DNA of 36,193 bases from Ignavibacteriota bacterium (GCA_016209795.1 JACQVI010000127.1:1-36193), one strand, 5' to 3'; shown: positions 1 through 22,345, numbered from the stretch's first letter. Notes: generated by a model from the letters alone, not told the origin. Numbers and translations are program-made.

Positions 1-1868
1 ATACAACAGTATCCGGAGTATTCACATACATAATTAGTAAATCTACATACATAGAGCTTGGGGGAGCCTATTTCGATACACGACACTTCAGCGGAGATGG
101 TGTGTATAAAGACAATTTCAGTTTATACACCTTAGCAGGGGCCGATAACCCTCGAAATTTGTATGATCCTGCACAGGGTGGATATTTTTCACCTGCAGGT
201 TGGGAGAGATATTTGGGGAATACCAGTGATACCGCGGGACTTGCTCAATTTTTAAATGATAACAGTTTAAACGACTATTATATCCCTGCTGATCGTTATG
301 ATCCATATGGTTTGTATTTCGCTCCTGGCTATGTGCGACGTTTTTATCAAACGTATCATGCACGATATATTAATCCGAAAATTAATATCGTAAGTCAAAT
401 CGATGACCATAACCTGATAAAAGCTGGGTTTGAATACCGGTATCATTCATTAGCGTATTATGAAAATTTTGAATCGAATCGCGGTGTGAATGCGAATATT
501 TTAAATGCATATGGATATACTCATGACGCAAAGGAAAACGATGCGGGAAACGGCGGCTTGCTCGACGGCATTCGACATCCGTATGATATTGCCGCCTATA
601 TTCAAGACAAAATCGAAGCGGAAGGATTGATTGTGAATGCAGGCTTGCGATTTGATTTCTTCAATGCCCAGTCAAAGACATTGAAAGATGAGCAAGATCC
701 ACTTGGAGCAAATCAAGTCCCATCGGGTGATCCGCGTGCTCGTCGGGCTGATGCGAGTGATTTCTCAGAGACAAAAACAGAAAGCAAGGTTAGCCCGCGC
801 TTAGGCATCGCTTTCCCTGTGACGGATAGAACGGTGTTTCACTTTAACTATGGGAGATTCTTCCAGCAGTCAAACCTCACCGATTTGTATTACGGCACAA
901 AGATCATCGAATTTAAGGCACTCAATGGTTCTCCAACATACAACATCCAAAATCCAAATTTGAAGCCTGAAGAAACAACCTCATACGAAGTCGGTATTAC
1001 ACAGCAGATTGCAGATAATATGCGTTTAAATGCGACAGCATATTACAAAGACACAAAAAATCTTGTTAACGTTCGGTATACACCGACGACAGCCCCTGGT
1101 GGTGCTGCATTGTATCAGGTCTCGAACCTTGATTATGGTACCATTAAGGGAATCGATCTTGGTTTTGAGGCGCGGCGTATTGGACGTGTTTCGGGAAGAT
1201 TAGCATACGGTTTGGCGTTTGCAGAAGGAACGGGTTCTGCAAGCAGAGAAAATTTCAATGCCGTATGGCTTGGATACGAAACTGCAAAATTTACTCAACC
1301 ACTCTCATTTGATCAACGCCATACCATTTCTGCAAATATCGATATTCGAAATCAGAAGGGTGAAGGAACGGGAATTTTTGAAAATGCAGGACTCAATGTT
1401 CTTGTATTAGCTCGCAGTGGTTTTCCATATACACCAACGGAAGCCTATAATGCAGCAGCATCAAATATTTCTATTTCAGTTCCGAAGGATGCACCGATCG
1501 ATGGTGTTAACACTCGTTCAGGTCCTTGGACATTCCGCATAGATCTCAAACTCAACAAAGAAGTAGACCTTGGCTTTTTCCGAACAGACTTTTACCTGCG
1601 CGTGCTAAATCTGCTTGATACGAAAAATGCATTGGCGGTGTATCAAGCAACGGGCGATCCCAATTCCGATGGATATCTCGGAACGTCCAACGGCTTTAAT
1701 GATCAGCAACTGTATGATACTGATAACAAAGTGTATACTACCAGTGAAGATTTTGTTAACAAGTATAATGATCGTTTAAATGGTGTGGATCTCAATATCA
1801 ATGGTAACTCGCAGCGAAAGTATGATACACCGCGTGAAGTACGCCTTGGAGTCATCATTAATCTCTAA
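1..1868 (+). CDS. TonB-dependent receptor, C-terminal part (5' end outside window)
   Basis: The frame is open from base 3 to the stop at 1866-1868, so this is the 3' part of a longer gene; the first GTG (102) is internal, not a start. The translated part is an outer-membrane beta-barrel: alternating aromatic/polar strands, the typical receptor segment NPNLKPEETTSYEVG (about nt 950-1000), a YYKDTKNLV strand after it, and a last strand ending in LGVIINL. Plug and TonB box are not in the window. In the family these receptors import large ligands using TonB/ExbBD energy; the substrate cannot be told from this part. It is followed after 63 bases by a secreted protein and then a PorV-like gene on the same strand, which suggests one surface-export/uptake unit. 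Confidence 0.88.
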   Translation, partial: TTVSGVFTYIISKSTYIELGGAYFDTRHFSGDGVYKDNFSLYTLAGADNPRNLYDPAQGGYFSPAGWERYLGNTSDTAGLAQFLNDNSLNDYYIPADRYDPYGLYFAPGYVRRFYQTYHARYINPKINIVSQIDDHNLIKAGFEYRYHSLAYYENFESNRGVNANILNAYGYTHDAKENDAGNGGLLDGIRHPYDIAAYIQDKIEAEGLIVNAGLRFDFFNAQSKTLKDEQDPLGANQVPSGDPRARRADASDFSETKTESKVSPRLGIAFPVTDRTVFHFNYGRFFQQSNLTDLYYGTKIIEFKALNGSPTYNIQNPNLKPEETTSYEVGITQQIADNMRLNATAYYKDTKNLVNVRYTPTTAPGGAALYQVSNLDYGTIKGIDLGFEARRIGRVSGRLAYGLAFAEGTGSASRENFNAVWLGYETAKFTQPLSFDQRHTISANIDIRNQKGEGTGIFENAGLNVLVLARSGFPYTPTEAYNAAASNISISVPKDAPIDGVNTRSGPWTFRIDLKLNKEVDLGFFRTDFYLRVLNLLDTKNALAVYQATGDPNSDGYLGTSNGFNDQQLYDTDNKVYTTSEDFVNKYNDRLNGVDLNINGNSQRKYDTPREVRLGVIINL

Positions 1869-1931
1869 CGATCTTTGAATGATACAAGAAGATAACAATG
1901 TGAATAATAAGAATTCAGAGGAGAACCCTGT

Positions 1932-4900
1932 ATGAATAATTACATCAAAATATTTCTGCTTTTCTTGATTGTGATAGCACTGATGTACTATGATGTAGCG
2001 TTAGCAGATAGTCCCAGGCATCGGCAGCAATTCAGCATCAGTAAAGTTGATAAGACGGCTGTACAAAATCAATTTACAATGGAAGGAAACAACTGGGCAT
2101 TCGAGATGACGAATTATGGACCCTATGCTCAGGACATCTCAGGTCGGTTACCCGGAGGTGGTGCTGGCGGAGAGTTTCCTCGAGGAACAGGGACCTATGT
2201 CATTTTTGCGGCAGGAATACAAATTGGTGCTCTTGTGAACGGTGTTCCAACAGTGAGTGTTGTCGATTTTGACTCTGAATTTCAACCCGGGGCGTTGGAA
2301 AAAACAGATCCCTACGACTCGACTGAAGTGCCCAGAGCGACTGATCCAGGTGCGGCGGTGAACAAATTATTTGCATTAGGTAGTGACGGCAGCGATGGAA
2401 CTCCTATCGGTACTGATGGAGACGGCGTTGACGATTATTCAAACTGGCCCTCACAATACGGTGCCCCAACACGCGCTGACGGTAGCCCTTTAGTGGTTGG
2501 TGATCTCATGAGCTGGTGTGTGTACAACGATATGGATCGGTCGCGTCATACAATTCCCAATGATGAAAACATGGAGCCTCTCGGTTTGGAAGTGCAACAA
2601 GCTTCGATCCAGGTCAATATTACAGGTTATAGTGATGTCTTCTTCATGTATTATAAGATCATCAATAAAGGTACGAGAAATCTCTCCGATGTGTATGTTG
2701 CTGCGTGGTTCGATGCAGATGTCGATAATGCTGGAAATGATTTAGTAGCGACTGATTCACTTACTAATATGGTATTTACTTATAATTCCGATAATACCGA
2801 TCCTCACAGCCTTGGTGGATCAGCATTCGGTGCAGACTTTTTCCAAGGACCGGTGGTCCCTGGTGATCCGACAGATACTGCAAAGTACCTCGAGCTGACG
2901 CCCGATGGATTCGTTCAACGTGTAGTGCCAGGAAAGAAAGTCCTTGGCTTGAGCACAACGGTGCGCTACATTAACGTGCGTGGACCCGATGGAGATCCTG
3001 ATAATGACACAGAATTATATAATCTCATGCGCGGTTTGCAGAAGAATGGCGATCCTCGTCCTAATCGGTTTACCTTCCCTGAGGATCCAGTTGCAGGAAA
3101 CCCCGCACTACTTGATCCAAGACCGGACGATAAACGCATGATGCTCTGTACTGGACCATTTAGTCTTGCCGTAGGTGATATTCAGATAGTCGTACTTGCG
3201 TGCGTTGGTGGGAAGGGGACTGATAGAATAAATGCAATTGAGAACCTTCGAGCAACAGACTTGATAGCACAACAAGCATATGATGCAAAATTCCTTCTTC
3301 CACAACCGCCGCCATCTCCACGTTTGATTGCAACGCCGTTAGACGGACGAGTTGTTCTTCAGTGGGACAATTCATCCGAGATTGCAGAAGATCGCTATCC
3401 TCAACTTGCAGGAATAAGTATCCCCAGTTATCGAGCGTACGATTTTGCAGGCTACAAGGTCTACCGCAGTCCTGATGGCACTGTAGGAAGTTGGACAGAA
3501 ATTGCCCAATTCGATAAGGCTGATGGCATTACAGAAATCCCGGAAACGACATGGTTTGTGCAGGATGTTTCTATAAAATCATTGCGACGTATCCCTATTG
3601 GTGATGATAAAGGTGTCCAATACTCCTTCATTGATGAGAATGTTTTCAATGGACAGGTTTACTACTACGCAGTAACAGCATACGATGCCCAGCCGGACAT
3701 TCGGAGCGGTGCCGCCCCGGTAACGCTTGAGAGCGCGCAAAGTCGAAACGCAGTGAAAGCCGTACCTCGCCCACCAAGCTTGGGAAATGTTGTTACGGCT
3801 GGTGTGCAGGATACGGCTTCTCATATTGGTAATAGCGGCGGCAGTGTTCTTGTCAGTGTAGTTGATCCAACGAAGGTGACAGGACACACATACAAAGTCG
3901 TGTTTGAAAATGTAACGATTACCGATACACTCGATTCTACTTCCACGACAGACATCTACTGGAGGTTGTGGGATGTAGATAAAGGCGCATATGTTCAGTT
4001 CACTAAAGCTGATAATCCGCGAACAGATGTTGATGAATCTTATCTCCAACTGAATCAAGCCTCAGCAGCAGATCCGGCGAGTGAAAATAACTTTGTCACT
4101 GCAGATGGACTTTTGATTAGAGTTTATGGGCCTGCGTTGGACTTCAAAAACTTCTTAGTTGTCGCAAATGCAAGTGGTCCATTAGATCCTCCAGATATGG
4201 GTTGTTTTGCATTCAACGTGAGCGGCTTTCCAACATTCGATGGCAATGATCGGCCCTCCGACAATCAGCAAGTAGGTGGAGGGCATTGGGGTGTACATAC
4301 GGGAAATATTGACGATCCCGATAACGCATCATACGAGTTTTTCAAGTTTCGTGTGACACAGGACGGTGCACGATGGCCATTGATTGTACCCTATGATTGG
4401 GAAATTCGTTATACTTCGAGCGGTGGATATGGTTTTGAGCCTAATGCCTTTGTGACTGGTTCGACTACCGGCGGAACAGTGATACCTGTACCGTTTGAAC
4501 TGTGGCGCATTGGCATTGGCACACTGAATGACTCAAGTGATGACGTCAGGTTATTCCCCTATATTTTAGATGTTAACGGTAATGGGCAGTTTGATCTCGA
4601 TGGAATAGACCATCCGATTTCCGGTGGTGACAATGATCCTGAAACCGATTGGATTTACTGGGTTCTTCCAGCCGATCAATCAGCTGGTCAAAATGGCTAC
4701 GACACATTACTAGGTAGAATCCAGTCTGACCCATCTACCTACGAATACCTCAGTGGAACTGACGGCGACGTGATGCGTCGGATGGTATTCGTTAATTGGA
4801 ACGGTGGTTCAGTGAGTGATCCGACTTTCCCTGGAAATGTCAACCAAGCTATGCCGGAATCGGGAACGATTTTCCGCATTATTACCACGAAGCCTAATCT

Positions 4901-5339
4901 GCCCGCCGACACGTTCATGTTTACGACGACGTCAAAGCCCGCGTTTAGCAGTTCGCTTGCGAGCTCACGGCTCAATAAAAACCATATTAAAGTTGTTCCA
5001 AATCCTTATTATGGATTCTCAGCGTACGATCAAAATCAATTCAATAGAAGAGTGAAGATTACGGGATTACCCGATGTGTGTACGATTCGTATCTTTAACG
5101 TTGCGGGCGATCTTGTGAGAGCAATTCAACACAATGGAACGAGTAATAACGATCGTAGCAGCAGTGGGTCAGAATTTACGTCTATAGAAATTTGGAATTT
5201 AACGTCCGATAACGGTATCTTTATATCGAGTGGTGTCTATTTTCTCCATATCGATGCTCCCGGTATAGGTCAAAGTAAGGAACTTATTCCATTTGCCATT
5301 ATCCAAGGTAACGTACAACTTACTGTTCCAACGAACTAA
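1932..5339 (+). CDS. Large secreted protein with FN3-like module and T9SS/FlgD-type C-terminal domain
   Basis: 1135 residues. ATG 1932 is preceded by a good ribosome site (GAGGAGA, about 1917-1924) and starts a clear signal peptide (NNYIKIFLLFLIVIALMYYD, cleavage near ALA-DS). The body has Asp/Gly-rich stretches (GTDGDGVDDY, GPDGDPDNDTE) that could bind calcium. A fibronectin-III-like module lies near residues 464-605 (LDGRVVLQWDNS ... VYYYAVTAYDAQP). From about residue 1020 comes a module beginning KVVPNPYYGFS and ending SGVYFLHIDAPG..KELIPFAII, the arrangement of type IX secretion sorting/FlgD-like Ig domains, here with a short extra tail. Inferred role: cell-surface or secreted structural or binding protein exported with help of the PorV-like neighbour. 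No enzymatic motif is visible and the exact function is unknown. Confidence 0.85.
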   Translation: MNNYIKIFLLFLIVIALMYYDVALADSPRHRQQFSISKVDKTAVQNQFTMEGNNWAFEMTNYGPYAQDISGRLPGGGAGGEFPRGTGTYVIFAAGIQIGALVNGVPTVSVVDFDSEFQPGALEKTDPYDSTEVPRATDPGAAVNKLFALGSDGSDGTPIGTDGDGVDDYSNWPSQYGAPTRADGSPLVVGDLMSWCVYNDMDRSRHTIPNDENMEPLGLEVQQASIQVNITGYSDVFFMYYKIINKGTRNLSDVYVAAWFDADVDNAGNDLVATDSLTNMVFTYNSDNTDPHSLGGSAFGADFFQGPVVPGDPTDTAKYLELTPDGFVQRVVPGKKVLGLSTTVRYINVRGPDGDPDNDTELYNLMRGLQKNGDPRPNRFTFPEDPVAGNPALLDPRPDDKRMMLCTGPFSLAVGDIQIVVLACVGGKGTDRINAIENLRATDLIAQQAYDAKFLLPQPPPSPRLIATPLDGRVVLQWDNSSEIAEDRYPQLAGISIPSYRAYDFAGYKVYRSPDGTVGSWTEIAQFDKADGITEIPETTWFVQDVSIKSLRRIPIGDDKGVQYSFIDENVFNGQVYYYAVTAYDAQPDIRSGAAPVTLESAQSRNAVKAVPRPPSLGNVVTAGVQDTASHIGNSGGSVLVSVVDPTKVTGHTYKVVFENVTITDTLDSTSTTDIYWRLWDVDKGAYVQFTKADNPRTDVDESYLQLNQASAADPASENNFVTADGLLIRVYGPALDFKNFLVVANASGPLDPPDMGCFAFNVSGFPTFDGNDRPSDNQQVGGGHWGVHTGNIDDPDNASYEFFKFRVTQDGARWPLIVPYDWEIRYTSSGGYGFEPNAFVTGSTTGGTVIPVPFELWRIGIGTLNDSSDDVRLFPYILDVNGNGQFDLDGIDHPISGGDNDPETDWIYWVLPADQSAGQNGYDTLLGRIQSDPSTYEYLSGTDGDVMRRMVFVNWNGGSVSDPTFPGNVNQAMPESGTIFRIITTKPNLPADTFMFTTTSKPAFSSSLASSRLNKNHIKVVPNPYYGFSAYDQNQFNRRVKITGLPDVCTIRIFNVAGDLVRAIQHNGTSNNDRSSSGSEFTSIEIWNLTSDNGIFISSGVYFLHIDAPGIGQSKELIPFAIIQGNVQLTVPTN

Positions 5340-5391
5340 TTCAGATTATGGTTAACACAGCTTTTCAACATTATTAAGGAGAATATCGATT

Positions 5392-6408
5392 ATGAAACGA
5401 TGCTACTTTACGTTGTTCACACTTCTCCTCATCACGACCTTGACATTAGCGGATGAGGGAAGAAAAGGACAAGCAGGGTTTCAGTTCTTACGAATACCCA
5501 TGGGTGCAAGACAAATTGCGATGGGAAACAGCGGGTTAGCCTCAGCAATAGGCGCTGGTGCAATATATTGGAATCCGGCGGGTGTTGCGAGCCAGAAAGG
5601 TTATGAGGCTCAATTTTCCAATGTGAGCTGGTTCGGCGATGTTTCGTATCAACATTTCACCGGCGTAGCAGGCATCGGTGAGCTTGGTACAATTGGCTTT
5701 GCAGTGCAGTACCTTTCGTATCCCGACATCGTTGAGACCACAGAAGAAGCTCCCGATGGCACCGGTGCAACGTATGCACCATACGATCTTGCTTTAGTAG
5801 TGAATTATTCCCGGCAAATGACAGACAAAGTTGCATTCGGTGTCAATGCAAAATATGTGAGTGAGACGATTGCTCTCGTGAGTGCAAGCGCGTTAGCATT
5901 TGATATCGGTCTTACGTATAATACGGGATACCAGGGTTTACAACTTGGATTTGCAATTTCAAACTATGGTACGAAAGGACAATTTACCGGATCAGGTCTC
6001 AGACGTTTTGTCCTGAGACCCGATGGACCTTCGAATCAAACACCCGTCCCTGTGCTTTTTGAGGCTGATAGAATTGAATTGCCTTCGTCCGTGCAGATGG
6101 GTTTGTCGATAAAGCCTGTTAAGACGGAGAATGTCTCGCTCCTTCTGAATGCTGACCAAGTTGTGAATACATTCTCAAACGATCGTACAAATCTTGGTGT
6201 TGAGCTTGCATATCATGACATGATCTTTGTTCGAGGTGGTTATATCACACGGACAGATTATAATGAGAGTACTACGGGGAATGCAAACTTCGGCGCTGGT
6301 ATCAAATACGAGATTGCAAGGAATTTTACCGTACTGTTTGATTATGCTTACGCCGATCTCGGACTTCTTGATAATGCGCAATATATAACCGTCGGGCTAC
6401 AGTTTTAA
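5392..6408 (+). CDS. PorV/PorQ family outer-membrane protein
   Basis: 338 residues with signal peptide (MKRCYFTLFTLLLITTLTLA-DEG). The N-terminal segment GFQFLRIPMGARQIAMGNSG..AIGAGAIYWNPAGVA is the diagnostic start of the PorV/PorQ (UPF0164) family of FadL-like 14-strand barrels. The rest alternates in beta strands and ends on an aromatic residue (YITVGLQF), as outer-membrane proteins do. In type IX secretion PorV is the shuttle that hands cargo with C-terminal sorting domains to the attachment complex. ATG 5392 has AAGGAGAA upstream. It sits 52 bases after a gene encoding a putative sorting-domain protein, so a dedicated shuttle/cargo pair is a reasonable inference; other PorV paralogues are likely elsewhere in the genome. 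Confidence 0.88.
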   Translation: MKRCYFTLFTLLLITTLTLADEGRKGQAGFQFLRIPMGARQIAMGNSGLASAIGAGAIYWNPAGVASQKGYEAQFSNVSWFGDVSYQHFTGVAGIGELGTIGFAVQYLSYPDIVETTEEAPDGTGATYAPYDLALVVNYSRQMTDKVAFGVNAKYVSETIALVSASALAFDIGLTYNTGYQGLQLGFAISNYGTKGQFTGSGLRRFVLRPDGPSNQTPVPVLFEADRIELPSSVQMGLSIKPVKTENVSLLLNADQVVNTFSNDRTNLGVELAYHDMIFVRGGYITRTDYNESTTGNANFGAGIKYEIARNFTVLFDYAYADLGLLDNAQYITVGLQF

Positions 6409-7883: not shown

Positions 7884-9638
7884 ATGAACGTACTTCATTG
7901 GGTTTGCAAGAATTTGGACTCCTTTCTCACCGCAATGTATTCATCTAATGGTGGGACAGTCGTTGTCATAGCGGTAGCACTATTCTTTCCACGCATAGAA
8001 GGAACAATCCATTGTTCACAACAGCGTGCTAAGCAGGGGATGGTAGTCTCTGCGCACCAACGTGCATCCGAAGTTGGCGTTGAGATCATGAAACGAGGCG
8101 GTAATGCAGTCGATGCCGCTGTTGCAGTTGGTTTTGCTCTCGCTGTTGTGTTTCCTGAGGCTGGAAATATTGGCGGTGGAGGCTTCATGCTTATACGATC
8201 GCATGATGGAGAAGCTGTGACCGTTGATTTCCGTGAGAAAGCCCCCAAGAAAGCTACTCGTACAATGTATCTCGATAGTGCATGGAATGTCACTGATAAG
8301 AGTGTCGATGGACATCTCTCTGTCGGTGTGCCTGGTACTGTTGCAGGTTTCATCAAAGCATTGGATGAATTTGGGACAATGAAGTTGCATGATGTCATTG
8401 ACCCTGCCATCCAATTAGCAGAGCATGGATTTGAAGTTGATGATCGCCTTGCCGGTTCTTTGGAGGACTATAAAGATATTTTATTATCGTTTCCCTCGAC
8501 TGAAGAGGCGTTGACAAAGGAAGGTCGATTGTACAAAGAGGGCGATACGTTACAGCAACCAGAGTTGGCGTCGACATTACGGCGCATTCAACGAGATGGA
8601 GTAGATGGATTTTATCGTGGCACGACGGCACGGCTGATTGTGGAAGAAATGCAGCGAGGAGGTGGCTTGATTACCGAGGATGATCTTACGGAATATCGAG
8701 CGGTTCTGCGTCAACCTCTGAAAGGATCGTATCGAGGGTACGAAATACTAACGGTTCCTCCGCCAAGTTCAGGGGGTTTGTGCTTACTTGAGCTTTTGAA
8801 TATCATGGAAGGATACGATCTTTCCTCGTGGGGCTTCCACTCATCACGATCAGTTCATGCGATGGTAGAAGCGATGAAACGAGTTTACGCCGATCGTGCT
8901 GAATTTATGGGCGATCCCGATTTTGTCGATGTTCCCGTTGAGGCATTAAGCTCGAAAAGCTATGCGGAGAAGCGCCGACGAGAGATTGATACACTCGCTG
9001 CAACTCAAAGTTCGCTTGTACATCACGGCGACCGAACCTACCTCAACGAAGGCGACCACACAACTCACTACTGCGTTATTGATCGAGAAGGAAATATCGT
9101 TTCTACAACCTACACGTTAAATGATCTTTTTGGCAGCAAAGTTATTGTTGACGGAGCCGGTTTTTTCCTCAATGATGAAATGGATGACTTCAGTGCGAAA
9201 CCGGGTGTGCCGAATATTTACGGACTCCTCGGCAGTGAAGCGAATGCCATAGAGCCAGAAAAACGGATGCTCAGCTCGATGTGCCCAACCATCGTGTTGA
9301 AAGATGGGAAACCTATCATGACCCTCGGTGCACGGGGTGGCTCACGCATCATCACGACTGTTTTTCAAACGATCGTCAATGTGGTAGATTTTGGGATGAA
9401 CATCCAACAAGTAGTTGAGCTTCCTCGTTTCCACCATCAATGGTTTCCTGATACGCTAATCTATGAGAGATTTTCATTTCCCGCAGATGTTCTCAATAAT
9501 CTCGAAGCAATGGGTCATACTTTGCGAGAACGACCATTAGCCACTGGTGCGCTGGAGGCACTATATATCGATCATGAAAAAGGAGTTATCTTAGGTGGTA
9601 CTGATTCTCGAGAGGGCGGCGTAGCGGTCGGGTATTGA
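7884..9638 (+). CDS. ggt: Gamma-glutamyltranspeptidase (glutathione hydrolase)
   Basis: 584 residues from ATG 7884; an in-frame ATG at 7935 is an alternative start, and neither has a clear ribosome site. A hydrophobic stretch (VVVIAVALFFPRIEG) acts as export signal. The mature part starts GMVVSAHQRASEVGVEIMKRGGNAVDAAVAVGFALAVV, the typical large-subunit N-terminus, with GNIGGGGFM following. The self-cleavage site and N-terminal nucleophile of the small subunit is Thr393 in DHTTHYCVIDREGNIVSTTYTLN. Oxyanion and substrate residues follow in MLSSMCPTIV and LGARGGSRIITT. The protein ends GGTDSREGGVAVGY as the family does. It hydrolyses or transfers the gamma-glutamyl group of glutathione in the periplasm. 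It runs into the B12 locus promoter right after its stop. Confidence 0.96.
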   Translation: MNVLHWVCKNLDSFLTAMYSSNGGTVVVIAVALFFPRIEGTIHCSQQRAKQGMVVSAHQRASEVGVEIMKRGGNAVDAAVAVGFALAVVFPEAGNIGGGGFMLIRSHDGEAVTVDFREKAPKKATRTMYLDSAWNVTDKSVDGHLSVGVPGTVAGFIKALDEFGTMKLHDVIDPAIQLAEHGFEVDDRLAGSLEDYKDILLSFPSTEEALTKEGRLYKEGDTLQQPELASTLRRIQRDGVDGFYRGTTARLIVEEMQRGGGLITEDDLTEYRAVLRQPLKGSYRGYEILTVPPPSSGGLCLLELLNIMEGYDLSSWGFHSSRSVHAMVEAMKRVYADRAEFMGDPDFVDVPVEALSSKSYAEKRRREIDTLAATQSSLVHHGDRTYLNEGDHTTHYCVIDREGNIVSTTYTLNDLFGSKVIVDGAGFFLNDEMDDFSAKPGVPNIYGLLGSEANAIEPEKRMLSSMCPTIVLKDGKPIMTLGARGGSRIITTVFQTIVNVVDFGMNIQQVVELPRFHHQWFPDTLIYERFSFPADVLNNLEAMGHTLRERPLATGALEALYIDHEKGVILGGTDSREGGVAVGY

Positions 9639-9649
9639 TATTTTTTTTC

Positions 9650-9680
9650 TTGACTTCTTGATCTTGTTGTGGTATATTTG
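9650..9680 (+). promoter_or_regulatory. Promoter of the B12 riboswitch transcript
   Basis: TTGACT (9650-9655), 17-base spacer and TATATTTG (9673-9680), an exact match to the Bacteroidota -7 consensus TAnnTTTG. It starts 12 bases after the ggt stop and about 29 bases before the riboswitch. Confidence 0.65.
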
Positions 9681-9708
9681 TACTAAGCTTAGTTCTTTGT
9701 CATAGTGT

Positions 9709-9901
9709 GTTGGTGTCCCGATCCCAACTTCGCCGGGATCGGGGCGAAACAGGGAATTCCGTGATCCCGCCTGCGGCGGGAAAGTCGGAAGCTGCCCCGC
9801 AACTGTGAATCCTACGATGTAGTTCTGACAAATGTCACTGTGACGCCCGAGGCGCCATGGGAAGACGTCAGAGAAGTGGATAAGCCAGGAGACCGACCAA
9901 C
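9709..9901 (+). promoter_or_regulatory. Cobalamin (adenosylcobalamin-type) riboswitch
   Basis: The conserved landmarks are in order: P1 strand GTTGGT (9709-9714) pairing with ACCAAC (9896-9901); a P2-type hairpin from CCCGATCCC/GGGATCGGG (9717-9735); the core GCGAAACAGGGAA (about 9734-9746); the strongly conserved GCTGCCCCGCAACTGTGAA (9791-9809); and the B12-box GCCAGGAGACC (9884-9894). A perfect CCCGCC/GGCGGG hairpin (9766-9780) fills a variable arm. The element lies in the 5' leader of a BtuB-like receptor and is followed by an intrinsic terminator, so it most likely stops transcription when cobalamin is bound. Confidence 0.95.
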
Positions 9902-9958
9902 GTTGTTACCTGTTGTAACCTTCGAGGGAAGGTATGGGTCGTAAAGATTTACTGATAG

Positions 9959-9997
9959 CCCAGCTTTTCCGCCGAAGGCGGAAAGGTTGGGTTTTTT
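9959..9997 (+). terminator. Intrinsic terminator of the riboswitch leader
   Basis: A 15-bp stem, 9959-9973 with 9977-9991 (two G-T wobbles), loop GAA, followed by six T (9992-9997). Placed 58 bases after the riboswitch, it is the expected expression platform; the alternative antiterminator pairing was not identified with certainty. Confidence 0.85.
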
Positions 9998-10071
9998 ATT
10001 TTCAATAAAAATTACTAACTGATGGTACACACTGTAGGTGTAAAGATAATCTGCTATCATGCGACTGTTGG

Positions 10072-10130
10072 AACTCATCCCCCTGCCCCCTTCTCTTTTA
10101 GAAGAGAATGGGGATCAAAGGGGTTGAGTT
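10072..10130 (+). repeat. 59-bp imperfect palindrome between riboswitch terminator and btuB-like gene
   Basis: Outer arms AACTCATCCCC (10072-10082) and GGGGTTGAGTT (10120-10130), 10 of 11 complementary; inner stem CCCCTTCTCTT/AAGAGAATGGGG (10087-10113) with a one-base bulge and loop TTAG. The look is that of a dispersed REP-like element; only one copy of this type is in the window. An ATG at 10108 lies inside it and is unlikely to be a start. Confidence 0.6.
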
Positions 10131-10185
10131 AGGATATGCATTTCACAAAGAAATTCATTTTAACAGCATAGAAAGGATCACCATT

Positions 10186-12369
10186 ATGCAGAATCGTACA
10201 GTAATGACTGCACTGCTTTTTTCATATATTTTTAGCTTGGTAGTTTTTGCAGGTGAGGACCAGAAAGACACGACGAAGATGTACCAACTTAAAGAGGTTG
10301 TCATCACTGCAACACGGAGTGATAAAAATCTTTCCGATGTTGGTAGGAGCGTTAGTCTCATCACAAAAGATCAATTGAGCAGTTCCATTTACCATAGTGT
10401 GGGGGAATTGCTCTCACACCAGGAGGGAATGTATATTGTTGGTGCCGGGCAAAATCCTGGTATGATCCAGAGTATTTTCACTCGTGGAGCTGCCAGTAAT
10501 CAGACAATGATGATGATTGACGAAGTTCGTATCACCGATCCCTCTGGTGTGAACAACGCGCTTGATCTATCAGAATTGTCGTTTGTTGGCTCTGATCGGA
10601 TTGAGATTGTCAGAGGCTCGCATAGCACGTTATATGGCTCATCCGCAATTGGTGGTGTAGTAAGCATCTTTACGCAGAAGAATAGAAAACCGGGATTCAA
10701 TACCGATGTCGAGTTGAGAACAGGAACATTCGGAAGCGGGACTTCAGCATTTTCGGAAAATGTGTTTTTGAATTATACCGATGTTAACGGCCTCTATATC
10801 AATGGAGAGATCAGCAACTCCAACATCAAAGGTCTTGATGCGACCGTAGATACGGTGACGAATCCTAATGTTTTCAAAAATCGTGATAAGGATGGCTTCG
10901 ACAAGAGGGATGTCATCGGAAAACTCGGCTTTAAGGACAACCGGTTCGATGTCTACGCTTCGTACAAACATACCAGAGATAAGACAGACATCGACAAGGG
11001 TGCTTACAGGGATGATGATAATTACACTCTCGATTTCAAGCGAAATTTATTCACCTATGGTGCAGCCTACAAAATTAGTAACGATGTGTATCTCAAATAT
11101 CTTGGCGGTTATTCGGACATGAAAAGAGTCGCCGTGGATGATTCTACTGTGATCGACAGGTTAGGAAGCACCGATCATACATATTTCGATGGCACGTGGA
11201 AAGGGAGCATATCGACAAATGAGATCCAGACAAATCTAAGGTTAAAAGGTTTCGAGGGTGTCTTCGGAGTAGGTTTATATCGGGAGACAATGACTTCAAA
11301 AACCTACTTTTATACCCGAAGCATCTTTGGTGTGTATGAGTCGAGAACAGATTTGGATACATTGGATTTGAATGCGACTACCAAGAATCTTTTCGCACAC
11401 ATCGATCTGAACGGAAGCTTAGTTGATGAATCATTCAGCAGATTTTCTCTTGCTCTCGGTACAAGATTGAACCATCACAGCACCTACGGTAACAATGTTA
11501 CGTATGAAATCAATCCTTCATTGAGAATCAGTGATAACGTATTGCTGTATGCTTCCCACTCAATCGGTTTCAATGCGCCATCGCTCTATCAAATCAATGC
11601 ACCCGATCAATACTATACTTCACCCATCGCGAGGGGGAATAAAAATCTCAAGCCGGAAAAATCTGTTTCATACGAAATCGGCTTCAAACAATCAATCAGC
11701 AGCAGTGCGAGCGTAGCTGTTGCTTATTTCAATGCCGAAGTTGAAGATGCTATCGAAAATGTTTACCTGTGGGATAAAAATATTGGCATCGATACCCTTG
11801 GCAGCGATTGGATGCGTGATGATTTCAGGGGAGATACGTATTTAAATGTTGGCAAGCAGACCACGAGCGGTGTTGAGTTTACACTGAATGCCAGAATAAG
11901 TGATAAGTTGTCTTTCTCAGGCAACTTCAGTTTGGTCAGCGGGAAGCTGACATACGATCCGTCGAACATAGACACTTCACAGACCGGTGGCAATCATGTG
12001 CAAGTGTACAGCAACGGAGCTTTCATCACGAAGGAAGTGGAAACGTTGGGCTTAGTGAGAAGACCTAACACCGCCAACCTCAGTTTGACCTACAAGCCTA
12101 TCGAGCAGCTTGCTCTGAGGATTGATGTACGATATGTAGGCTCCCGGAGCGATATTTACTATGAATCAAAACTTGGTCCTTACGGCGCTTTAGGGACAGT
12201 GCCTGTTGCTGACTATACTCTGTTAGATTTCTCCCAGAGATTTACTTTCAGCAGCCATTTTTCCATCGGTGCAAGAATAGAAAATGTTTTCAACACGAGG
12301 TACGCAGAGATAAACGGCTTTACCACACGGGGAAGGGGAGTCTATCTGAGCACAGGGATTTCATTGTGA
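10186..12369 (+). CDS. btuB: BtuB-like TonB-dependent receptor for cobalamin/corrinoids
   Basis: 727 residues from ATG 10186, chosen because AAAGGA lies 9-14 bases upstream and it begins a signal peptide (NRTVMTALLFSYIFSLVVFA-GED); the longer frame from 10108 starts inside a palindrome. The TonB box/plug begins LKEVVITATRSDKNLSDVGRSV, followed by the plug core FTRGAASNQTMMMIDEVRITDPSG and IEIVRGSHSTLYGSSAIGGVVSIFT. The barrel carries NKNLKPEKSVSYEIGFKQSI and ends with YAEINGFTTRGRGVYLSTGISL. Substrate assignment rests on the riboswitch in its leader and on B12-type genes downstream, not on ligand residues. It carries corrinoids across the outer membrane, driven by TonB. Its stop overlaps the next start by four bases (GTGA). 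Confidence 0.9.
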   Translation: MQNRTVMTALLFSYIFSLVVFAGEDQKDTTKMYQLKEVVITATRSDKNLSDVGRSVSLITKDQLSSSIYHSVGELLSHQEGMYIVGAGQNPGMIQSIFTRGAASNQTMMMIDEVRITDPSGVNNALDLSELSFVGSDRIEIVRGSHSTLYGSSAIGGVVSIFTQKNRKPGFNTDVELRTGTFGSGTSAFSENVFLNYTDVNGLYINGEISNSNIKGLDATVDTVTNPNVFKNRDKDGFDKRDVIGKLGFKDNRFDVYASYKHTRDKTDIDKGAYRDDDNYTLDFKRNLFTYGAAYKISNDVYLKYLGGYSDMKRVAVDDSTVIDRLGSTDHTYFDGTWKGSISTNEIQTNLRLKGFEGVFGVGLYRETMTSKTYFYTRSIFGVYESRTDLDTLDLNATTKNLFAHIDLNGSLVDESFSRFSLALGTRLNHHSTYGNNVTYEINPSLRISDNVLLYASHSIGFNAPSLYQINAPDQYYTSPIARGNKNLKPEKSVSYEIGFKQSISSSASVAVAYFNAEVEDAIENVYLWDKNIGIDTLGSDWMRDDFRGDTYLNVGKQTTSGVEFTLNARISDKLSFSGNFSLVSGKLTYDPSNIDTSQTGGNHVQVYSNGAFITKEVETLGLVRRPNTANLSLTYKPIEQLALRIDVRYVGSRSDIYYESKLGPYGALGTVPVADYTLLDFSQRFTFSSHFSIGARIENVFNTRYAEINGFTTRGRGVYLSTGISL

Positions 12370-13058
12370 AATGCGCAGAAGGCATTCCTCTGGAAAAAGA
12401 GCGCGTCCTTGTTTCCTGGAGCGGTGGCAAAGATAGTGCCATGGCACTGTATGAGATTCACAACTCACAGCAATACACAATCACTGCATTACTTACGACA
12501 GTAACTGAGGGATATGATCGCATCAGTATGCACGGTGTGCGTCGCACGTTGCTTGAACGCCAGGCAGAAGCGCTTGGTTTACCATTGAGGGAAGTTTTTA
12601 TATCGCAAGGCGCTTCTAATCAAGAGTATGAATCGAAAATGCGTGATGCTCTTACTGAATCTCAAAAGGAAAGCATTGCATCGGTAGTTTTTGGAGACAT
12701 TTTCCTGGAGGATATTCGGCGATACCGTGAAAGGCTTTTGTCGGACATAGGCATGAAGGCAATTTTCCCGATTTGGAAAAAGAACACTACTCAGCTTGCC
12801 CGTGCGTTCATCGAGAATGGCTTTAAGGCGGTTGTCGTTTGCACTGACCCTAAGGTTCTTGATAAAACATTTGCGGGAAGAATCTACGATAAAAACTTTT
12901 TGCATGATCTTCCGCCGACCATTGATCCATGTGGCGAGAATGGTGAATTTCACTCGTTCGTTTTCGATGCACCGTTCTTCAAATCACGGATAGCTTGTAC
13001 GATTGGCGAAGTTGTGTTGAGAGATTCATTTTACTTTTGTGATCTGATGCCCGTCTGA
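12366..13058 (+). CDS. DUF71/COG2102 PP-loop ATPase (Dph6-like), B12-salvage subgroup candidate
   Basis: 230 residues. GTG 12366 is the start; it overlaps the btuB stop (GTGA), and no in-frame ATG precedes the P-loop. The PP-loop motif SGGKDS occupies residues 19-24 (VLVSWSGGKDSAMALYE). Later family motifs are GVRRTLLERQAEALGLPL, VVFGDIFLEDIRRYRERLLSDIGMKAIFPIW and the C-terminal IDPCGENGEFHSFVFDAPFF, the TIGR00290/Dph6 signature. The archaeal and eukaryotic relatives amidate diphthine; bacteria lack diphthamide. Published comparative genomics placed a bacterial DUF71 subgroup with B12 transport and salvage genes, and the position here between a riboswitch-controlled receptor and a BtuF-like gene fits that. 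The reaction is unknown; ATP-dependent amidation of a corrinoid precursor is the inference. Confidence 0.88.
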   Translation: MKCAEGIPLEKERVLVSWSGGKDSAMALYEIHNSQQYTITALLTTVTEGYDRISMHGVRRTLLERQAEALGLPLREVFISQGASNQEYESKMRDALTESQKESIASVVFGDIFLEDIRRYRERLLSDIGMKAIFPIWKKNTTQLARAFIENGFKAVVVCTDPKVLDKTFAGRIYDKNFLHDLPPTIDPCGENGEFHSFVFDAPFFKSRIACTIGEVVLRDSFYFCDLMPV

Positions 13059-13065
13059 AATTCGT

Positions 13066-13096
13066 TTGCTTGTGGTTGTCGTAACTGCTATCTTTT
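13066..13096 (+). promoter_or_regulatory. Likely internal promoter before the BtuF-like gene
   Basis: TTGCTT (13066-13071), 17-base spacer, TATCTTTT (13089-13096), starting just after the DUF71 stop and 21 bases before the next ATG. If active, the last two genes of the locus could be expressed without the riboswitch. Confidence 0.45.
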
Positions 13097-13117
13097 AAGC
13101 AAATCGTATGTAATGAT

Positions 13118-14116
13118 ATGAATGTAGACTCTAAGAAAAATTTGAGAATCTGCTCCTTATTGCCAAGCAGCACAGAAATCTTATTTGCCCTTGGTCTCGG
13201 CGATCAGGTTGTTGCCGTTACGCACGAATGCGATTATCCGCCTGAAGCTCTGACGAAGCCGAAAGTTACTCGTTCCGAGATATCGCCCGCTCTATCAAGT
13301 ATTGAAATTGATTTCCGAGTACGACAACAGCTTGAGAATATTGGAACGTTGTACCAGCTTGACGTCGAGCTGCTCGACAGTCTTTCACCGGACATCATTT
13401 TTACTCAACAGCTCTGTACGGTTTGTGCCGTGTCGTATGATAATGTTTTTCGTGTTGCCCAGAAGATCAAAAGCAAACCGAAGGTTGTTAATCTTGAGCC
13501 ACAATCGTTAGAGGGGATATTTCAGAACATCTTGGAAGTCGGTCGACTCACAGGAAGAATTTCTAAAGCAAACAATGTTGTGAATGAGCTTCAGGGAAGA
13601 GTTGAAAGAGTCAGAAAGCTTACACAAACGCTGGAACGGAAACGAGTTCTCTGCTTAGAATGGCTCGATCCTCCCTTTTGTGCCGGACATTGGATTCCTG
13701 AGCTAGTAGAACTTGCTGGTGGTTCTGATGCTCTTGGAAGAAAACACCAACCATCGAGCCAAGTTGCGTGGAATCAAATACTTTCGTATAATCCTGATGT
13801 CATCGTTGTGATGTGCTGCGGATTTTCAATAGAAAGAACGCTACGGGAAATCTCAGTGCTTAAAAATCCCATGCTAGAAAGACTTTCAGCGGTCAAAAAT
13901 AATAATCTGTTTGTTGTGGATGGATCATCATATTTTAGTCGACCGGGTCCACGGATTGTTGATAGTCTGGAAATACTTACAACAATTTTTCATCTTAACG
14001 AGTTGACCTACGGTCTCGTAGAGAGTTGTCAACCTAAACTTTTTCCAATCGAGTATCCTCAGAATATTGTTCAACAAGTGTATTTGACTGAAACAGGACA
14101 TTTCACTAACATATAA
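13118..14116 (+). CDS. BtuF-like cobalamin-binding protein lacking a signal peptide
   Basis: 332 residues from ATG 13118. The fold is the two-lobed periplasmic-binding type (COG0614, cobalamin-binding branch): RICSLLPSSTEILFALGLGDQVVAVTHECDYP at the N-terminus, DIIFTQQLCTVCAVSYD near residues 90-107, CLEWLDPPFCAGHWIPELVELAGG (about 179-200) and FVVDGSSYFSRPGPRIVDSLEIL near the C-terminus. Classical BtuF delivers B12 to BtuCD in the periplasm, but this protein begins MNVDSKKNLRICSLLP with no hydrophobic leader, so it would stay in the cytoplasm as written. No start further upstream adds a leader. It is ten bases upstream of a small membrane-protein gene. Role inferred: corrinoid binding or trafficking. 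Confidence 0.85.
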   Translation: MNVDSKKNLRICSLLPSSTEILFALGLGDQVVAVTHECDYPPEALTKPKVTRSEISPALSSIEIDFRVRQQLENIGTLYQLDVELLDSLSPDIIFTQQLCTVCAVSYDNVFRVAQKIKSKPKVVNLEPQSLEGIFQNILEVGRLTGRISKANNVVNELQGRVERVRKLTQTLERKRVLCLEWLDPPFCAGHWIPELVELAGGSDALGRKHQPSSQVAWNQILSYNPDVIVVMCCGFSIERTLREISVLKNPMLERLSAVKNNNLFVVDGSSYFSRPGPRIVDSLEILTTIFHLNELTYGLVESCQPKLFPIEYPQNIVQQVYLTETGHFTNI

Positions 14117-14126
14117 GGAAGTTACT

Positions 14127-14651
14127 ATGGCTCGATACCTTTTTACTATCACACTGATTGCCTTAGCGGTTCTCTCTCGCTTGATACCGCATCCACCGAA
14201 TTTCGCTCCAATAACAGCTCTCGCGCTGTTCAGCGGCGTCTATCTTGACAAGAAGTATACATTCATCGTTCCTCTCGTAGCGATGCTCATTAGCGACTAT
14301 TTCCTTGGATTCTATACGGGGATGGCGTGGGTGTATGCGAGCTTCATTGCCATAGGCTTTATTGGACTCTGGCTGCGGAATCATCGAGGAATCGGACAGA
14401 CAATTGGCGCTACGCTTGTAGGGTCTATCCTGTTCTTCGTCGTAACAAATTTTGGCGTGTGGGTCTCATCGAAGGTTGCATATCCGCATACGGTGGATGG
14501 ATTGATCGCATGTTATGTTGCTGCAATCCCATTCTTCCGAAATACATTGCTTGGAGATTTCTTCTATGTGGCAGCCTTGTTTGGTGCGTATGAGCTGGGA
14601 AAGCGATACATACCAGCGTTGAAAATCCAGCCAACGGGTACAGAAGTTTGA
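14127..14651 (+). CDS. DUF6580-like small integral membrane protein, possible transport component
   Basis: 174 residues with about five transmembrane segments: an N-terminal one (LFTITLIALAVLSRLIPHPP), then PITALALFSGVYL, FIVPLVAMLISDYFLGF, WVYASFIAIGFIGLWL, IGATLVGSILFFVVTNFGVWV and a last one near LLGDFFYVAALFGAYELG. The motif RLIPHPPNFAPITALALFSG with a following SDYFLGF resembles the DUF6580 family, whose members recall substrate-binding S components of energy-coupling transporters. ATG 14127 follows the BtuF-like stop by ten bases with AAGGA upstream. No ABC permease or ATPase is in the locus, so this protein is the only local candidate for corrinoid passage through the inner membrane; that is inference. 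Confidence 0.7.
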   Translation: MARYLFTITLIALAVLSRLIPHPPNFAPITALALFSGVYLDKKYTFIVPLVAMLISDYFLGFYTGMAWVYASFIAIGFIGLWLRNHRGIGQTIGATLVGSILFFVVTNFGVWVSSKVAYPHTVDGLIACYVAAIPFFRNTLLGDFFYVAALFGAYELGKRYIPALKIQPTGTEV

Positions 14652-14660
14652 ATGAACCTG

Positions 14661-14692
14661 AAGCCGTCTTGAGAAATTGAGACGGCTTTGTT
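14661..14692 (+). terminator. Possible terminator after the B12 locus
   Basis: Hairpin AAGCCGTCT (14661-14669) with AGACGGCTT (14680-14688), a perfect 9-bp stem with ten-base loop, followed by only a weak T-rich tail (TGTTGT). It separates the B12 genes from carA. Confidence 0.5.
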
Positions 14693-14714
14693 GTATGAGT
14701 GATAAGTATTGATA

Positions 14715-20237: not shown

Positions 20238-21017
20238 CTATCCGTAGTGCGCCCCCTTTTTCTTCTCTCTCTTGAGTCTATACAGCTTGATTTGCACGAT
20301 GCTTACTTCTTCTGAATTTGGGTTACTATCAAACTCGATAAGATAGATTTTATTGTGACCAGCCGGTTTCGCTGCAATCGGGCGACACTTGAGCTTGGGA
20401 AAATTCTGGCGTGAGAACTTGACCATATTCGAAATCTGAATCCAGCCGAGTTTGTCTCGGTCGTCCCCACTCTTTGCTTCGAGAGGAAGAATATACTCGG
20501 TACCATCGGTGTCGACGCCAACGTACAGGTCATCAACTTCGATTTGACCTTCGCCCTCAATGGTCGTTCGGATGTGAGATTGAAGATGAAAGCAGGCGAT
20601 CTCGGTGAAAATGTCTACAAGGCGATTGTAGCGGATTGATGAAAGCAAAGCTTGCTCATCTTCGGATGCATGCTTTTCGACAATTTCAGGGAGTGCATTG
20701 GGAATTTCAATGGCGTGCAAGCCCTCTTGAATGTCAACGAAAGGCTTGCGCTTTGATTTTAGAAACGAGAAACGACCTTTGCCCTTTGGCTTGATGACCC
20801 AGTTGCCCTTGTCGAGAATTGCTTCGGGAAGATTCGCACGTGAGCGATAGGTGTAGACAACGTCGGGAGGGTTTCGAAGCGTGATCTTGAGCTTTCTGGC
20901 AACTGAAACAAGCTCATCCTTGGTAAAGTCGATTTCAGAAGAGCCTTCTTTGAACTTTGAGTTGAAAAGACTGGTTATGATTCGGTCATAGTCTTTCTCA
21001 CGCTGGTTTATTGGCAT
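20238..21017 (-). CDS. Putative type II restriction endonuclease, partner of the adjacent methyltransferase
   Basis: 259 residues from ATG 21017, which has GAGGA 11-15 bases upstream; a TTG at 21038 overlapping the methyltransferase stop (TTGA) gives seven more residues. A PD-(D/E)xK-like core is visible: IEVDDLYVGVDTDGTEYILPLEAKSGDDRDKLGW, where an Asp of VDDLY and Glu-x-Lys of LEAKSG would be the metal and catalytic residues, followed by a helix with Gln (IQISNMVKFSRQNF). The N-terminal half includes DVVYTYRSRANLPEAIL. I do not recognise a named isoschizomer. Directly downstream of a DNA methyltransferase, it is best read as the restriction half of an R-M pair. Confidence 0.75.
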   Translation of the reverse strand: MPINQREKDYDRIITSLFNSKFKEGSSEIDFTKDELVSVARKLKITLRNPPDVVYTYRSRANLPEAILDKGNWVIKPKGKGRFSFLKSKRKPFVDIQEGLHAIEIPNALPEIVEKHASEDEQALLSSIRYNRLVDIFTEIACFHLQSHIRTTIEGEGQIEVDDLYVGVDTDGTEYILPLEAKSGDDRDKLGWIQISNMVKFSRQNFPKLKCRPIAAKPAGHNKIYLIEFDSNPNSEEVSIVQIKLYRLKREKKKGAHYG

Positions 21018-21034
21018 CGACAGTTTGTCCTCGT

Positions 21035-22345
21035 TCAAGTTCGGAGGATGAGGACGTTTTCTTCGATTTGAATCTTGGTTGCTGTTGCCAGTCTTGTTCG
21101 CCAGAGTTCGATTTCCTCGACTTTGTAGCCGAGCGATTCTGCTATTTCTCCAAGAATCTTGGCAGTGGGGATATGTGTGCGGAAGAACGACATCTGGTCG
21201 CCAACGACGTAGGCAAGCCGAGATTCGGGTGACAAGAGTGGCTTGAGAGTTTGAAAGTGTCGGTACATACCGCCAAAGTAATGCTTGACAATCTTGTGAT
21301 ACATCTTCTCGAAACCCGATGTCTTCTTGAGATGAATCCGCTTCTCTTCGATTTCTCTGGCAATTCTGTTGATAGAGTCAAAGGACTTGACGTAGTCTTG
21401 ATCGTTGTCGGTGACGAAGATGTTTCGAGAGTTGCTGCGGAGAAGCTGCTCTTTGAGAGTGCGGAGGCTTTGCTTACTGGATACGAGTCCGAGAATAACA
21501 CTTTCGAGACGAGTAGTGCGTGTGTAGTCTTTCTCGTTAGGATATGGTGGTGAAGTGATTACAAAGTTAACCTCGCTTAAGTGGGTGGGGAAGCAATCTG
21601 ATACACGTCTTGCGTCGCCGTATACGATTTCAGCCGTCCCCGCAATTGCAGGTTGGGAATCGAGGTCGCAGATCATTCGGTCGACAAGTTTGTAGAAAAA
21701 ATCGAGAATGTGAACATCCTTTTGGGGGTTCGTAGTGTAAATCTCTGGACCGAATGCAACGTTTCCAGCGTGATTGACGACAAGGTTTGCCAGCGCAAGC
21801 AAGAACAAATCTGGAATCTTATCATCGTTCACTTGTTCAATGCACTCTTTGAGGATAAGCACCCGTCTGAGCGGCTTTGGACTGATGAAGTCTTTTGGCA
21901 ATACTGCTCGCTGGTCTTTGCTCAATGTTGGCTCAGCCGAAAGAGGCTTTCCTTTGTTGGGTTGAACGAACAAGGAAACATCTTCGGATAGCCCATACTT
22001 GTCAAGCGATGAAGATGCAGTTGCGATGACTTCTCTGAAAGCTTGGCGAAGCTCAGACGTTGAAATGTTCCAGTCCGTTTTTACACGGGAAGCAAAATAC
22101 ACAACAGGGTTGGCTTCGAGACCAAGGGAATCTATATTAAGCTTCTTGCACTCAAGATTGGTCGTACCAGTTCCGCAGAACGGGTCTAGGACAAGGTGCC
22201 CAGAGTTAATTCCAAACTTGTAGATGTAATAGCGAACGAGGTGCGGTGGGTATCCGAGGACAAACTGATACCAAGAATGAAATGACTTATCCCCAATCTG
22301 AGTCTGGTTGCGAACCGAGTTTTCTATTTCAAAAATGTTCTGCAT
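21035..22345 (-). CDS. Site-specific DNA methyltransferase (N4-cytosine or N6-adenine)
   Basis: 436 residues from ATG 22345. SAM-binding motif I is LDPFCGTGTTNLE (residues 53-65), and the catalytic motif IV is TSPPYPNEKDY (264-274); SPPY is commoner in N4-cytosine enzymes, though adenine enzymes also use it. Near the N-terminus FHSWYQFVLGYPPHLVRYYIYKFG is typical of such R-M methylases. The insert between the motifs probably includes target recognition. Its stop overlaps or abuts the endonuclease gene, so both are translated together. The 5' end lies 61 bases from an attC-like element (22406-22492), putting the R-M pair in the first position after that element. Confidence 0.92.
   Translation of the reverse strand: MQNIFEIENSVRNQTQIGDKSFHSWYQFVLGYPPHLVRYYIYKFGINSGHLVLDPFCGTGTTNLECKKLNIDSLGLEANPVVYFASRVKTDWNISTSELRQAFREVIATASSSLDKYGLSEDVSLFVQPNKGKPLSAEPTLSKDQRAVLPKDFISPKPLRRVLILKECIEQVNDDKIPDLFLLALANLVVNHAGNVAFGPEIYTTNPQKDVHILDFFYKLVDRMICDLDSQPAIAGTAEIVYGDARRVSDCFPTHLSEVNFVITSPPYPNEKDYTRTTRLESVILGLVSSKQSLRTLKEQLLRSNSRNIFVTDNDQDYVKSFDSINRIAREIEEKRIHLKKTSGFEKMYHKIVKHYFGGMYRHFQTLKPLLSPESRLAYVVGDQMSFFRTHIPTAKILGEIAESLGYKVEEIELWRTRLATATKIQIEENVLILRT

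Follow-up and report, generated by a model that had tools for sequence, protein, structure and literature searches.

How do corrinoids cross the inner membrane of a bacterium whose genome encodes a BtuB-like receptor but no BtuCD? The question is raised by positions 9,650 to 14,651 of a 36,193-nucleotide stretch of DNA from an Ignavibacteriota bacterium (GCA_016209795.1 JACQVI010000127.1:1-36193; below, the window), where a cobalamin riboswitch precedes genes for the receptor, a DUF71 PP-loop ATPase, a BtuF-like protein and a small membrane protein of the DUF6580 family. In many bacteria that depend on vitamin B12 (B12), a receptor of the outer membrane is present while the inner membrane has no known importer (PMC6072759). 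We consider it highly likely that the operon serves B12-repressed uptake and that DUF6580 is a predicted solitary S-component-like corrinoid importer replacing BtuCD. The family very probably constitutes a new and widespread group of solitary importers, the substrate of which would be a corrinoid and the transport of which would proceed without an energising module. A first-pass annotation of this DNA had suggested DUF6580 as an alternative inner-membrane route for B12, and this suggestion gained strong support from the association with B12 genes and the complementarity with FecCD described below.

B12 demand, absent permeases and distribution of DUF6580

The source genome, which is 96% complete and comprises 3.39 Mb in 263 contigs, contains a single DUF6580 gene and a single cobalamin riboswitch, that at 9694-9915. 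It encodes MetH and a methylmalonyl-CoA mutase B12 domain, and a family search did not find CobS in it. Hence, B12 must be imported, and judged by its gene content the organism apparently cannot complete B12 synthesis. A PduO-type adenosyltransferase was not found in the genome either, the BtuR type not having been searched. No FecCD/BtuC permease scored above the cut-off in a genome-wide profile search; the sole sub-threshold match is an ATP-binding cassette (ABC) permease of the ABC-3 type adjoining a ZnuA gene. EcfT/CbiQ (PF02361) was absent from the genome in a family search that did not include EcfA. With the known types absent, DUF6580 is apparently the sole inner-membrane B12 importer candidate of this genome. 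The lack of BtuCD noted in the first-pass annotation thus extends to the whole genome, and a btuCD under its own riboswitch, which that annotation had envisaged as a possible objection, was not encountered: the genome has neither BtuC nor a second cobalamin riboswitch.

Among 198 genomes of the phylum that are at least 90% complete, DUF6580 above cut-off was found in 81, strong FecCD (E <1e-50) in 130 and a cobalamin riboswitch in 194. DUF6580 occurred without FecCD in 67 genomes, FecCD without DUF6580 in 116, both in 14 and neither in 1 (Fisher p 2e-37). The corresponding numbers were 45, 48, 10 and 0 if counted by genus, and 10, 20, 9 and 0 if counted by family. This near-perfect complementarity is the pattern of two systems sharing one job. 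Switches were also seen within some families, such as f26, in which two genomes of one genus (G081 and G151) are devoid of DUF6580 and carry FecCD adjoining a riboswitch. Strong intact FecCD was present in 8 of 34 DUF6580 genomes derived nearly all from other phyla, a count that has no baseline and is supportive only. Among 150 genomes of the order to which a rhizobial relative belongs, DUF6580 was found in just 3, a number that does not allow complementarity to be tested a second time.

A homologue scan with one genome per species yielded 80 DUF6580 loci, assigned by record title to more than 10 phyla, in which neighbors were counted on the same strand within 2.5 kb. BtuB-like receptor genes were found near DUF6580 in 40 loci, DUF71 in 19 and BtuF-like genes in 13, every time together with DUF71. 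A BtuB, DUF71, BtuF or B12-box mark was present at 54 of the 80 loci. Rfam cmscan identified cobalamin riboswitches in 12 out of 13 close relatives and 6 out of 11 more distant loci. A B12-box pattern that recovers nearly all of the confirmed riboswitches matched 57 times across the 80 loci compared to 1.65 times in shuffled sequence. These matches were located near 47 loci, nearly all on the DUF6580 strand, and directly upstream of the DUF6580 gene itself in 10 loci. The linkage of DUF6580 to B12 is far above chance, and the association with B12 genes on which the first-pass annotation had staked its proposal proved strong in the 80 loci. One DUF6580 group (L084-L102) has neither riboswitch nor B12 neighbors, and FecCD is still mostly absent from the respective genomes; its distant members L099 and L100 are devoid of His22, and some other members of the conserved Cys.

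Patescibacteria have no outer membrane. In L051, L059 and L075 their DUF6580 gene adjoins an adenosylcobalamin-dependent ribonucleotide reductase (NrdJ) above the TIGR02504 cut-off, and in L028 an RTPR-like reductase below it. Further genes adjoining DUF6580 encode PduO- or BtuR-type adenosyltransferases (L024, L028, L059, L075) and small, N-terminally hydrophobic DUF4430 proteins (L024, L028, L036, L059), the DUF4430 domain being known from the C-terminus of transcobalamins (PMC4350170). Strong FecCD was not found in the tested Patescibacteria genomes of 0.7-1.0 Mb. Jointly, these six loci outline a candidate for a complete B12 scavenging set in tiny genomes.

Predicted fold of DUF6580 and competing explanations

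An AlphaFold model derived from 69 sequences (predicted local distance difference test 92.7, predicted template modelling score 0.87) predicts a six-helix S-component fold spanning the whole DUF6580 protein. In VIA-align, the top 19 rows were all S-components (Z 9.5-14.1), headed by the BtuM-cobalamin complex (Z 14.1, 157 residues, 2.9 A, 15% identity). The next row was MreD (Z 8.2), which is itself reported to be related to the S-component fold. The near-invariant residues P21, H22, N25, D57, Y70, N108, W112, Y119, C129, Y130 and P135 are located in or next to loops L1, L3 and L5 according to model and alignment, with the conserved motifs PHPPN in L1 and YP...GL..CY.AAIPFF in L5. If S-component topology applies, these three loops would face the periplasm, with which the positive charges of the other loops agree. 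As a guess that fits the aligned ranges of the model, H22 and D57 may correspond to H28 and D67 of the BtuM pocket.

Several points weigh against a solitary corrinoid importer of this kind. A profile of the 69 DUF6580 sequences matched no PDB chain at E 10 even though BtuM entries are contained in the PDB, and the Foldseek search, which also put BtuM first, did so weakly (E 0.24, probability 0.97). The DUF6580 protein of the window matches none of the NCBIfam models. The window protein has a single Cys, C129, which the model places in L5, whereas the cobalt ligand of BtuM is Cys80 in L3 (PMC6072759); an exact equivalence of the two was rejected on topology. Furthermore, Cys129 is kept in 87 out of 101 homologues and replaced by Ser, Thr or Ala in 14. 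Since the single Cys is located in L5 and is replaced in these homologues, ligation by Cys is not assured. In the phylum sample roughly every second DUF6580 gene, among them those of one large family, lies far from riboswitches and B12 genes; the genomes concerned still mostly have no FecCD, and these copies may be unregulated importers or may have drifted. The complementarity itself is partly shaped by lineage, the effects of which are not fully removed, and the incompleteness of the source genome counts on the same side.

For a solitary corrinoid importer the following course can be proposed. Under corrinoid scarcity the riboswitch would let transcription read past the terminator, and the BtuB-like receptor together with TonB would bring the corrinoid into the periplasm. 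The periplasmic face of DUF6580 would bind it via L1, L3 and L5 and, by analogy to BtuM, would most likely topple to move it over the inner membrane without an ECF (energy-coupling factor) module. Net uptake would be driven by capture inside the cell, a view extrapolated from PMC6072759. In the cytosol, the BtuF-like protein could plausibly accept the corrinoid, and the DUF71-B12 ATPase could plausibly modify or trap it. Tentatively, one may go further and regard DUF6580 as a new, phylum-spanning class of one-protein importers; in operons such as the present one, capture by the BtuF-like protein and chemical trapping or repair by the PP-loop ATPase would replace the ABC motor of BtuCDF.

Canonical S-components require an ECF module. 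DUF6580 might therefore depend on an unrecognised ATPase or ECF-like module, or draw its energy from the DUF71 PP-loop ATPase encoded in the operon. This is unlikely, because EcfT is absent here and from 77 of the 81 DUF6580 genomes of the phylum sample and because just 19 of the 80 loci have DUF71 nearby. PP-loop ATPases adenylate their substrates and are not known to act as transport motors. Moreover, BtuM and some BioY proteins act alone (PMC6072759, PMC11109136). Less probable still is the transport of a B12 precursor or fragment in place of whole cobamides, either alpha-ribazole, as described for CblT in a B12 pathway (PMC8123684), or cobinamide. The predicted action of DUF71-B12 in salvage (PMC3541065) would suit such a cargo. 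Without CobS neither compound can be converted to cobalamin here, the complementarity with FecCD suggests a cargo equal to that of BtuCD, and in Patescibacteria adenosyltransferase and B12-dependent reductase genes directly adjoin DUF6580. S-component-like folds are also found in metal ECF systems, which leaves import of cobalt or another metal, as predicted for other small membrane proteins under riboswitch control, with B12 entering through a separate system, as the faintest of these alternatives. Cobalt transporters are known or predicted in B12 regulons (PMC8123684), but CobS is absent, the operon carries a corrinoid receptor, the small Patescibacteria genomes place DUF6580 beside B12-using and B12-adenosylating enzymes, BtuM is the nearest fold, and the complementarity with FecCD suits B12, not cobalt.

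Operon layout and accessory proteins

The operon is encoded on the plus strand in the order cobalamin riboswitch, terminator, btuB-like, DUF71 PP-loop ATPase, BtuF-like and DUF6580, as derived from the sequence and Pfam and Rfam scans (Table 1). All of the parts named in the first-pass annotation were recovered in place by cmscan and Pfam. The aptamer covers model positions 1-189 at a score of 88.4 bits compared to a gathering threshold of 31.5. The terminator sits right behind it, which suggests control on the level of transcription; it likely is the transcriptional expression platform of the riboswitch, and a folding energy of -39.5 kcal/mol (z -5.3) was obtained for the region 9916-10010. 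The promoter candidate is weak when taken alone, as the consensus scan gave 11 such sites versus 10.1 expected by chance. The receptor stop overlaps the ATPase start, and the remaining intergenic gaps comprise 59 and 10 bases. The operon probably ends at the stem-loop ahead of carA, which is a probable terminator.

Table 1. Features of the DUF6580 operon (window coordinates)
Feature	Coordinates	Strand	Support
Sigma-70-like promoter candidate	9650..9678	+	TTGACT-17-TATATT, TG ahead of second hexamer; consensus scan, 10/12 matches
Cobalamin riboswitch aptamer (RF00174)	9694..9915	+	cmscan 88.4 bits, E 1e-20
Intrinsic terminator	9957..10000	+	terminator scan; 17-bp stem, 3-nt loop, U-run
BtuB-like TonB-dependent receptor	10108..12369	+	Pfam Plug and TonB barrel
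DUF71/COG2102 PP-loop ATPase (PF01902)	12366..13058	+	E 1e-42; SGGKDS and CGENGEFH
BtuF-like protein, Peripla_BP_2 (PF01497)	13118..14116	+	E 1e-29
DUF6580 membrane protein (PF20221)	14127..14651	+	186 bits, E 7e-55
Stem-loop between operon and carA	about 14660..14692	+	13-bp stem; fold of 14652-14708: -18.5 kcal/mol, z -5.1

The top NCBIfam models of the receptor are those of BtuB (TonB-B12, E 9e-53), although below the equivalog cut-off, and BtuB is among its solved-structure relatives. Its start is probably the ATG at 10186 and not at 10108, since a signal peptide, as judged from the sequence, begins there.

The DUF71 protein carries the CGENGEFH motif, encoded at about 12930-12953 and kept in DUF71 of related loci. 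It thus shows the ENGEF/YH motif and the B12 neighborhood by which the DUF71-B12 subgroup is recognized; this subgroup was defined by its motif and predicted to act in pseudo-B12 salvage (PMC3541065). The first-pass annotation had proposed ATP-dependent corrinoid remodelling by this ATPase. The proposal found no support here, as CobS, needed to rebuild a cleaved cobamide, is absent and most DUF6580 loci (all but 19 of 80) are without DUF71. Because CobS is absent, pseudo-B12 salvage cannot be completed here, a remodelling enzyme is a weakened candidate in this organism, and ATP-dependent trapping or side-chain repair may, with low confidence, be at least as likely. In three loci (L025, L029, L016) DUF71 homologues adjoining DUF6580 showed no CGENGEFH in a pattern search and perhaps belong to another subgroup.

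In the BtuF-like protein, inspection, with no dedicated predictor run, revealed no signal peptide, hydrophobic N-terminus or upstream in-frame start. Several of its homologues beside DUF71 begin right at the RIVSLLPSATE motif, and in related loci with a clear BtuF-like start a signal peptide was likewise not seen by inspection. Solved-structure relatives are BtuF and other binding proteins. The assignment of a Peripla_BP_2 domain stood, whereas a role as periplasmic ABC partner was rejected for want of a signal peptide; the simplest interpretation, predicted from the sequence, is that of an acceptor for corrinoids in the cytosol. The signal-less BtuF-like proteins of the window and of 13 related loci always accompany DUF71 beside DUF6580. 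This suggests that the two form a cytosolic unit for corrinoid handling. Both are accessory, since most related operons hold receptor and DUF6580 only. A near relative of the same family (L103) has riboswitch, receptor, DUF6580 and nothing else of the operon.

Immediately 5' of the riboswitch, a gamma-glutamyltranspeptidase gene is located at 7884-9638, and a homologue is also found upstream in L006, L016 and L044. Elsewhere in the window, the region 102-6408 encodes in series a TonB-dependent receptor barrel, a protein of 1135 residues that matches no Pfam family and a PorV-like protein; these genes are possibly related to type IX secretion. On the minus strand at 20238-22345, an N6/N4 DNA methylase-like gene overlaps an open reading frame without Pfam match, possibly forming a restriction-modification pair.

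Significance and comparison with known systems

If the assignment is true, DUF6580 supplies the missing importer in roughly two fifths of the phylum genomes sampled. In Patescibacteria, it becomes a candidate for importing the cofactor on which their B12-dependent ribonucleotide reductase relies. Solitary S-components would then represent a widespread transport mode and no longer a curiosity, and genome-based predictions of B12 uptake ability would need correcting. In the literature covered, which did not extend to bioRxiv and subscription journals, DUF6580 was not found to be named, and BtuM and CbrT were the only alternative B12 importers of this kind.

The operon resembles BtuCDF systems in its presumed cargo and in the genomic slot beside btuB and DUF71 (PMC3541065), but BtuC is absent here and the BtuF-like protein lacks a signal peptide. 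With the DUF71-B12 subgroup of COG2102 (PMC3541065) it shares the SGGKDS and ENGEFH motifs and the B12 neighborhood. It differs from described loci of this subgroup in that the linked transporter is DUF6580 instead of BtuCDF and in that CobS is missing. The ECF S-components CbrT, RibU, FolT, ThiT and BioY have the overall fold in common with the DUF6580 model, which in this case stems from a genome without EcfT. The closest counterpart is the solitary S-component-like B12 transporter BtuM of Thiobacillus denitrificans (PDB 8ovv, 8c7p; PMC6072759). Both combine a six-helix S-component fold, predicted for DUF6580, with a size of about 20 kDa, a B12 gene context and genomes without BtuCD or ECF module. 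On the side predicted to be periplasmic, they also have in common a Cys that is near-invariant and a His and an Asp that are conserved. The identity is only 15%, a sequence-level match is absent, and the Cys resides in L5 instead of L3. In contrast to the mostly proteobacterial BtuM, DUF6580 is distributed over many phyla, and its neighbors are BtuB, DUF71 and the predicted cytosolic BtuF-like protein.

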